DNA of 64,000 bases from Brevibacillus brevis. Its GTDB lineage: Bacteria; Bacillota; Bacilli; Brevibacillales; Brevibacillaceae. Numbering within the stretch: position 1 is the first letter of the stretch; each line of letters begins with the position of its first letter. This document shows positions 19,107-21,014 of the stretch, piece after piece. The notes beneath the pieces are model-generated. The model searched no databases, was not told the DNA's origin, and saw nothing but the letters and a program-made list of their open reading frames with translations. The DNA lies in assembly GCF_001039275.2 (NCBI RefSeq), contig NZ_CP030117.1, positions 2,005,501-2,069,500 on the forward strand. Reading direction: 5' to 3'. The position numbers and the translations under genes are program-made.

Positions 19107-20607
19107 ATGATCGGAATATATGCCAGGGTGAGTACAGAGGAGCAGGCCAAGAGCGGATTCAGCCTCGACGATCAGTTAAGGGAATGCAGGAAGAAGGCAG
19201 CGACGAGTGAAGCTGCCGAGTACATAGATGATGTATCAGGCGAGTTCCTAGATCGTCCGGCTCTCTCAAGGCTAAGACAAGATGTGAAGGATGGGGTCAT
19301 AACAAAGATTGTGTGTCTGGACCCTGACCGTTTGTCGCGTAAGCTAATGAACCAACTGCTTATTACAGATGAATTTGATAAGCGTGGTATAGAGCTTGTG
19401 TTCGTGAATGGAGAATATGCAAAAACGCCTGAAGGTCAACTCTTTTACAGCATGCGTTGGAGCAATTGCTGAATTTGAGAAGGCAAAAATTAATGAGCGT
19501 ATGAGTCGTGGAAGAAGAGAAAAGGCAAGACAGGGCCGCGTTCTCCGTGACTTTCAAATATATGGGTACAGTTATGATTCTGAGAAGGAACAGATAGTAA
19601 TAAATGAAGCTGAGGCAGCAGTAGTGCGACTTGTATTTGATCTGTTTACTCAGCCAAATGATCTTGTTGAAGGGATAAATGGAATAGCCGTTTACCTGAC
19701 CAGCAAGGGAGTTCCTACAAAGCGGGGGGCGAGTGTATGGCATCGACAAGTGGTACGTCAGATGCTGATGAATGAGGCTTACGTGGGGAGATTTTATCAA
19801 AATAAGTGGAATACGGAAGGGATGCTGGGCAATCAGTTTCGCCAGCCAGATGAGAAAGTCCGTATGAAAATGCGCCCAAAAGAAGAGTGGATATTGTTGC
19901 CATGCCCATCCATCATTAGTGAAAAGAAATTTGAACATGCCCAAAGACTACTAAAGGAATCTAGAAGAAGATGGGCGGGCCGGAGCTTTAACGAGTACCT
20001 CTTAAGCGGCTTAGTACGGTGCGGGAATTGTGGAAATACGATGCCAGGAAGAAAAGTGAAAAACTGGGGCCAACATGTATTTGAGTATACCGACGTTAAG
20101 AATACAGCAGGTGCAAAAAATAAGGGATGTGGTCGCCGTGTCAGATGTGAGTAATTGGACAATCAGGTTTGGGAAACGGTGGCGTCCTGGTTGAATAATC
20201 CTGACGAGATTGCCGTGGCAGTGGAAGATAAAGTGGAAACTCCATTCGAGCAAGTGGAGATGGAACGCTTGCAAAAGGAACTCGAAAAAACAAAAGCGGG
20301 TCGCAAGAGATTGCTTAAATTGTTTGCTTCCGGCGAAGATGATATTGGTGAAGAAGATATTCGCCAAGAGTTAAAAGAACTGAAGGAGAAGGAAGATAAA
20401 CTGAATCAGCGTCTCAATGAGCTGCTGGATCAAACAAAACAGCAGGTCGATTATGAGTATAGCCGCAACTTAATCCAGGAAGCTGCTGAATATTATTTAT
20501 CGAAGGCACAGGATGAGCTAAGCTTTGAGGATAAAAAAGAGCTGATCCGACATGTGGTAAGGGAAATAAGAGTATTTGAAGAGAGCGTGGGGATATTCAC
20601 GTTTTAA
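19107..20607 (+). pseudogene. spoIVCA: SpoIVCA-type large serine recombinase, broken
   Basis: Rebuilt length is about 500 residues, the same as SpoIVCA, the recombinase that excises the skin element during sporulation. Catalytic domain: IGIYARVSTEEQAKSGFSLD (Ser in RVS), CLDPDRLSRKLMNQL, VNGEYAKTPEGQLFYSM. Then GAIAEFEKAKINERMSRGRR, recombinase domain KRGASVWHRQVVRQMLMNEA, zinc ribbon LLSGLVRCGNCGNTM, and a coiled coil. Three lesions: an extra T near 19458 shifts the frame, an in-frame TAA at 20152, and the third zinc Cys replaced (EYTD where YTC is usual). The adjacent sigK fragment fixes the identity. Confidence 0.9.
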
Positions 20608-20650
20608 GTCTTTCTAAGCTCCTCTTTTGACATTTAGATTGAAATCCTCA
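20608..20650. other. Right recombination junction with sigK (attR-like)
   Basis: SigK similarity begins with GAAATCCTCATG at 20641 and is preceded by an in-frame TAG at 20635. In B. subtilis the skin crossover is placed within AATGA of the same codons (Glu-Asn-Glu). So the crossover here is probably in or next to ATTGAAATCC. The matching left site is outside the window. Confidence 0.6.
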
Positions 20651-21014
20651 TGCATCTAAGAAGCCTGAAAAAACCAAAAAAGACGTATCCTTGCACGACC
20701 CAATCGGGACGGATAAAGAAGGGAATGAAATTACCTTAATCGACGTCCTTGGCACAGAAACCGACGAAGTGGTCGACGCTGTACAGCTCAAGCTGGAGTC
20801 CAATAAGATTTACCAGCACATACACATCCTTGATGAGCGCGAAAAAGAGGTGATCATCGGCAGGTTCGGGCTGGATCAGGACAAAGAAAAGACACAGCGT
20901 GAAATTGCACGTGAGCTGGGCATTTCTCGTTCGTATGTATCCCGTATCGAAAAGCGAGCGTTAATGAAGCTGTTTAATGAGTTTTATCGAACGAAACAGC
21001 CGCAGGGAAGATAA
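20641..21014 (+). pseudogene. sigK: 3' half of sigK (sigma-K regions 3-4), frameshifted
   Basis: In the first frame it reads EILMHLRSLKK, then in another frame TKKDVSLHDPIGTDKEGNEI, ILDEREKEVIIGRFGLD, TQREIARELGISRSYVSRIE and KRALMKLFNEFYR. This is the spoIIIC half of sigma-K, the late mother-cell sporulation sigma factor; residues 1-110 or so (spoIVCB half) are absent. The A run at 20668 has six As where seven are needed, so even after excision the joined gene would be out of frame. The helix-turn-helix for -35 recognition is otherwise well kept. Confidence 0.9.

Follow-up and report, generated by a model that had tools for sequence, protein, structure and literature searches.

The strip of DNA described here is, almost certainly, the collapsed remains of an element that once split sigK. 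It lies in a window (the whole stretch of 64,000 nucleotides that was analysed) covering positions 2005501-2069500 of the 6.44-Mb single-contig genome of Brevibacillus brevis, and a complete sigK stands at genome positions 2004532-2005242 (stop codon included), ending 258 bp to the left of the first base of the window. The route by which the gene became whole is one that we infer: possibly, with a likelihood just short of even in our estimate, sigK was rebuilt beside the right end of this dead element via homologous recombination with a second full copy of the gene, most likely a spare borne by such an element.

The complete sigK encodes 236 residues and scores 372 bits against a cut-off of 298.65, so sigK is not split in this genome. 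It stands within its native upstream context, 20.9 kb to the left of a stranded second 3' half (Table 1), and a genome-wide search found no lone sigK 5' half. The preliminary description had read this region as a decayed sigK-splitting element, with the 5' half of the gene to be sought further left. The first part of that reading stood, in that the right end of such an element is present together with phage genes; the second part gave way, as the complete gene was found in place of a 5' half, and a simple split sigK with its 5' half further left is thereby ruled out.

Table 1. Features of the region, with positions counted from the first base of the window.
Feature	Position	Strand	Evidence
Decayed insert strip, from complete sigK to resumed conserved chromosome	1..27470		Sister alignments
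Putative acetyltransferase-like ORF region	283..828	-	91.2% over 546 bp to the G002 sigK stack
Terminase small subunit of decayed phage	10455..11099	+	phrog_1889, 5.1e-46
Terminase large subunit, shortened (194 aa only)	11194..11778	+	phrog_10250, 2.8e-17
Head morphogenesis protein fragment	11822..12109	+	phrog_2468, 1.6e-26
Head maturation protease, two frames (12498-12845, 12832-13068)	12498..13068	+	phrog_3017, 5.6e-40 and 5.1e-21
SpoIVCA-type large serine recombinase pseudogene, three ORFs	19107..20607	+	PF00239, PF07508, PF13408; ORFs and stop
Right element junction, attR, at site B near sigK codon 112	20623..20644	+	22-nt motif, 1 mismatch
Stranded second sigK 3' half	20632..21014	+	Profile match, alignment to intact gene
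Type-1 sigK downstream flank and adjoining region	21015..22223	+	Also behind 3' ends in G002, G011, G023
Resumed chromosome: two DUF2935 genes and a DUF1648 gene	27471..30300		PF11155 twice, PF07853; sister alignment
Old right-hand sigK neighbour	30301..31976	+	Alignment of G009 downstream region

At 20632-21014 the 3' half of the gene occurs a second time, redundant and frameshifted. Positions 20655-21014 match the spore_sigmaK profile TIGR02846 over positions 121-227 of 227 (4.9e-47), and an alignment of the half with the complete sigK of this genome spans 375 columns at 95.7% identity; the half has one base fewer than the intact gene in an A-run near codon 121, which puts it out of frame with the junction. 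Over the last 115 codons the stranded and intact copies differ by 15 synonymous and 3 non-synonymous base changes, the latter all in one codon, from which it seems probable that the stranded copy served as a functional sigK end until a short time ago. Chance can be dismissed as the source of the sigK 3' matches, since 20 codon-shuffled sigK queries gave 0 matches at E<=1e-4 in the Brevibacillus sigK loci; at the same threshold no additional sigK remnant was found between 21015 and 27470. The intact sigK carries a type-2 downstream flank and the stranded half a type-1 flank (in G006 the two parts of this type-1 flank region occur at separate places), and in a tree of 3' halves the intact one groups with that of G022, another species (support 97/93).

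Directly before the stranded half lies the SpoIVCA-type recombinase that had been placed there from the letters alone, an assignment borne out by the family matches, the TIGR02846 match and the attR motif. In a family profile search the ORF at 19107-19472 matched Resolvase (PF00239, 2.1e-25) and the ORF at 19408-20154 matched Recombinase (PF07508 at 19420-20154, 1.4e-17), with a Zn ribbon (PF13408) in the latter barely over the cut-off; the piece at 20155-20607 had no family match in that search. The reading frame shifts between the first two ORFs, and an in-frame stop stands just before the third piece. All three pieces share 84.6-100% identity with recombinases of sister genomes in which sigK is split (G005, G006, G022 and G023); named relatives of at least 90% identity are mostly labelled Brevibacillus, although the top match comes from a 4.5-kb contig under the name Bacillus thuringiensis. 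The preliminary description had also looked to a comparison of both junctions for a shared core. The right one, attR, lies at 20623-20644, and its 22-nt motif is present at 8 further sites among Brevibacillus loci (up to 4 mismatches); the left one, attL, was sought with as many as 5 mismatches allowed and was not found in the window or the 10 kb to its left, and 9 sister genomes have one. With the left junction not found and the recombinase broken, clean excision seems impossible here; it is also unneeded in this genome, sigK being already whole.

The presence of phage genes to the left of the recombinase had likewise been foreseen, and PHROG matches confirm a small terminase, a shortened large terminase, a head morphogenesis protein and a head maturation protease. 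A nucleotide search of phage records with positions 6400-13200 returned 8 partial matches, which cover at most 10% of the query at 65.7-72.7% identity, and no close named phage relative of this stretch was found among those records. In clean loci such as G009 the conserved right-hand neighbour stands within about 90 bp of sigK; here it starts at 30301, and sister similarity, in the form of long 91-96% alignments to G011, G018, G022 and G005, runs from 27471 onward, so that about 27.5 kb has accumulated between sigK and the conserved chromosome. Left of 27471 the sisters align in patches only, the longest of about 2 kb around the recombinase and the 3' half. The putative acetyltransferase-like region near the left end, with its ORF at 321-749, has a counterpart in G002 that is placed after that genome's oldest 3' remnant. 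Small, putatively secreted proteins are distributed across the insert strip (814-1206, 3610-4005, 15404-15856, 22675-23121, 23713-24192 and 26300-26800); the one at 15404-15856 had no PHROG match and the last three had no Pfam match.

The genus set comprised 26 Brevibacillus genomes, this one included, with sigK complete in 11 and split in 15. DNA comparison places the insertions at three points of the gene (A near nucleotide 199, B near 336 and C near 421-432), and that of the window is site B. In two genomes a pair of elements cuts sigK into three pieces, at A and B in G003 (L126) and at B and C in G025 (L158-L159). The placement of the recombinase on the 3' side, pointed out in the preliminary description, is shared by seven sister loci in which it stands immediately before the 3' half (G004, G006, G019, G021, G022, G023 and G024); in G005 it lies 3.5 kb before the 3' half, and in G003 and G025 the site-B recombinase is reversed and beside the 5' piece. 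When the halves were joined, a sigK frame of 236 residues resulted for 7 of the 8 genomes tried, G022 having been missed by the motif and not joined. Two further features were seen: G006 (L130) has a second, truncated recombinase copy at 4185-6010, beside the post-sigK flank, inside the current element and left of the working junction, and in G010 (L135-L137) the sigK 5' and 3' pieces are on opposite strands some 34 kb apart, seemingly parted by an inversion.

At a single motif threshold, nine Brevibacillus loci contain a site-B right junction. Six of these (G005, G006, G019, G022, G023 and G024) have the left junction too, all with a split sigK, and the other three (G000, G002 and G012) have a right junction without a left one, all with a complete sigK; G004, G018 and G021 have a left junction without a right junction inside the threshold, and some loci are partial or interrupted by contig ends (e.g., G004, G018, G021 and G024). 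The consistency of this pattern (a right junction without a left always with an intact gene, 3/3, and with a left always with a split one, 6/6) favours the reading that we prefer, as do the different flank types of the intact and stranded copies and the position of the intact 3' half nearest to G022. We strongly infer that a once functional sigK was interrupted at codon 112 by an element that encoded a SpoIVCA-type recombinase; the inserted DNA would have held a second complete sigK with its promoter and terminator, and a crossover between the native promoter and 5' half and their counterpart in the spare would have removed the left junction. What would remain is an intact gene, the rest of the element, the recombinase, attR and the old 3' half, which is the order observed. 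Frame changes or a stop disrupt both the recombinase and the stranded half, and the left junction is not found.

Such a collapse between direct repeats requires no illegitimate join. The main rival, which we hold to be somewhat improbable, does require one: a skin-like element without a spare and with a dead recombinase would have left a strain deficient in sigma-K, which was rescued by the intact sigK DNA of a relative, the left crossover falling in upstream sequence that is homologous between the two, and the right side being joined illegitimately inside the element. The final map would be identical, which weakens the preferred reading, as does the fact that no complete sigK was found in any of the 9 Brevibacillus genomes with a site-B left junction (G004, G005, G006, G018, G019, G021, G022, G023 and G024); split genes without a spare are the pattern of this type of element in Brevibacillus, as a rescue would presuppose. 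The closeness of the intact 3' half to another species, and its type-2 flank against the stranded type-1, would suit a donor equally, and similarity continues past the stop codon for different lengths (62 bp in G005 and 89 bp in G008, with a longer stretch in G011), much as random right joins would have it. Yet the illegitimate join would be required each time, and remnants occur in 11 of the 26 genomes; nor would a donor explain the spares of the Paenibacillus-like genus described below or the full gene and upstream region in G002. That genome offers a likely parallel to spare and collapse within the genus itself, the order being a 5' remnant, about 7.7 kb, a full sigK preceded by some 120 bp of its upstream region, the relic of a recombinase and attR; with the left junction missing there, its full sigK is no more than a candidate for an element-borne copy.

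The remnants themselves (extra sigK 3' pieces at E<=1e-4) were found in G000, G002, G005, G008, G011, G012, G013, G017, G019, G022 and G023. In all ten genomes where the extra piece shares the contig of sigK it lies downstream of the working 3' end on the same strand (in G013 it is on a different contig). Pieces start exactly at a junction in G000, G002 and G012 (site B) and in G005 and G008 (site C), and a second piece in G002 starts at C following a small deletion; those of the remaining six genomes are shorter and start away from any junction, with identities of only 72-74% in G017 and G019. The first 3'-half tree, in which 9 of 29 inner branches are strongly supported, makes the working and stranded halves nearest relatives in G008 (100/100), G005 (99/88) and G002 (93/87). 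This is what would be expected had the right part of the element and the 3' half been duplicated in tandem within the lineage, with excision between attL and the nearer attR leaving an intact gene and a second copy; here, however, the two copies differ in downstream flank and the intact one groups with G022, and we regard such an origin as unlikely. The tendency of 3' parts to group by genome, seen in both genera, is nevertheless a point against spare and collapse, since it would also fit local duplication or gene conversion.

A class-wide survey for sigK 3' matches covered 398 genomes. One genus of another family has up to 8 strong matches per genome, and outside that genus and Brevibacillus none of the genomes listed exceeds two; we call the genus Paenibacillus-like because named Paenibacillus contigs have either additional 3' copies or an identical type of junction arm (L023, L037, L056, L059 and L066). 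Eleven members, most of them picked for multiple matches, were examined closely: all 11 have a full-length sigK match and 10 (all except G317) contain additional 3' parts. Many of these parts follow a conserved arm and begin at codon 63-64, and many retain open frames; G309 has nine such remnants at E<=1e-12. The right-junction pattern occurs in 49 of 100 Paenibacillus-like genomes (98 sites in total) and the left-junction pattern, unlike it in length and permitted mismatches, in 6 of the 100 (7 sites, 5 of them genuine left junctions); reversed control patterns had 0 matches in the same 100 genomes. Direct-repeat collapse would explain why right junctions so far outnumber left ones. The match in G498 was discarded as a decayed right junction read from the other strand, and the second match in G107 as one not adjoining the sigK 5' end.

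The left junctions that do adjoin a sigK 5' end are those of G107, G381, G414, G482 and G492. All four elements that can be read onward enclose a complete sigK (in G414 the contig ends), and they are a direct precedent for the kind of spare that we propose in Brevibacillus. The inner genes of G107 and G381 have upstream homology to the ordinary sigK over the last 100-117 bp or so before the start codon, and a related recombinase precedes the inner gene in G107, G381 and G482; G492 had no recombinase match, and the stretch of some 250 bp that precedes its inner sigK is shared with G107. Two arrangements from elsewhere are recorded here in their own right: in Fictibacillus enclensis (L013) two complete sigK matches stand in tandem (3860-4567 and 10001-10708, about 5.4 kb apart), and in G070 (L224), which belongs to yet another family, a 5' end with a left junction of site-A type is followed 6.4 kb on by a full sigK and 4.2 kb beyond that by a 3' half of site-B type.

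In a tree of 37 Paenibacillus-like 3' regions, 15 of 34 inner branches are strongly supported. Some regions pair across species, e.g., G054_2 with G221 (96/90), which would fit repeated arrival; the genome labels need 16 changes, against a mean of 27.9 for shuffles, and this within-genome grouping of copies would fit local duplication or conversion. A full history was sought from the 3'-half trees of the two genera, which resolve it only in part (9/29 and 15/34 inner branches strongly supported). The cargo between the parts includes Wadjet JetA-D, GajA and GajB, a PtuA-like protein, PD-Lambda-4, a type IV restriction enzyme, PDC-S50 and an LmuB-like protein, and PADLOC matched 11 of 18 hand-picked large cargo proteins versus 1 of 10 controls taken from other parts of three of these genomes. 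Defence genes interspersed among stacked sigK tails were seen in G054 (L227-L231), G309 (L232-L237) and G107 (L238), and in G107 GajA and GajB lie inside the element with the spare sigK.

A further explanation would have the element bear only the 3' half of sigK at its attachment site and rebuild the gene on entry, as tRNA-targeting elements do. The final map would again be identical, and the open frames kept by many Paenibacillus-like 3' parts would suit it. From general knowledge, however, a serine integrase would then be joining attB to a site that already has the attB half, and the four elements readable from their left junction hold the whole gene. In addition, a search of 50,697 phage records with the sigK 3' half gave 30 matching records, 0 of them at 60% identity or above; no mobile form carrying sigK DNA is thus in hand, which also tells against spare and collapse. 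The cassette with a 3' half only was demoted on this null phage search and on the complete sigK in left-junction elements, and we think it very unlikely. Among viral contigs the 3' half had matches at 19 loci, and 13 of them were re-searched: the match is no more than 0.7 kb from a contig end in 8, no more than 2.6 kb away in 4 and further in for 1. This last contig (G037, behind L179) has middle pieces of sigK at 5699-5863 and 9865-9969 (residues 63-117 and 112-146) and looks like a provirus prediction that spans a gene interrupted at more than one site. The viral-contig matches as a whole look like proviruses in split genes and are uninformative about free phages.

The window resembles the skin element of Bacillus subtilis in its phage-derived DNA, its SpoIVCA-type large serine recombinase and a junction near sigK codon 112, which we take to be the position in B. 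subtilis as well, with an AATGA core. It is unlike skin in that sigK is whole, the left junction was not found, the 3' half is redundant and the recombinase, which is broken, stands on the 3' side. The spare-sigK elements of G107, G381, G482 and G492 also insert in sigK, and their collapse would leave an intact gene, remains of the element and a right junction with a 3' part; they differ from the window in an attachment site at codon 63-69, in another recombinase (that of G107, of 548 aa, is 27-43% identical to the recombinase pieces of the window) and in being uncollapsed. According to the accessible part of a published account, skin-Cd of Clostridioides difficile differs from the B. subtilis element in insertion site and orientation (PMC5025042); it is an independent sigK element, whose different site parallels the different sites A, B and C found here. 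Unlike the element of the window it is functional and excised in the mother cell, and that part of the account mentions neither stranded 3' halves nor a spare sigK (PMC5025042). The temperate Alicyclobacillus phage MMB025 is described, in the part of its source available, as integrated within sigK beside a SpoIVCA-family integrase (PMC13141910), and it differs from the window's element in being an infectious phage in a split gene. Together, the available parts of four papers cover split sigK with excision and an inversion in the sigK of Paenibacillus larvae, and do not mention stranded sigK ends or a spare sigK (PMC13141910, PMC5025042, PMC6957869, PMC12453123). Neither was found in literature titles and the openings of abstracts, a scope that mostly left subscription papers outside.

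More broadly, sigK may be an integration hot spot that keeps its own record, a proposal that we consider evenly poised: elements would arrive with a complete sigK, so that excision is unneeded, and spare and native gene would merge, each round stranding one 3' end, with up to nine tails framing anti-phage defence in the Paenibacillus-like genus and the window as the Brevibacillus case, with one well-preserved layer. Elements in sigK are the textbook example of genes that need developmental excision. The loci described here suggest a second way of living in sigK, in which the element supplies a replacement gene and the stranded tails are a record of past insertions, and this is possibly the reason why certain genomes have an apparently ordinary sigK. 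It also advises caution, as a surplus sigK gene or a truncated sigK pseudogene may in fact be the fossil of a junction. The Paenibacillus-like sigK site gathers defence systems (Wadjet, Gabija and others), so that sigK junction motifs could be used to locate defence islands, and the gain and loss of developmental excision in sporulating lineages becomes testable.
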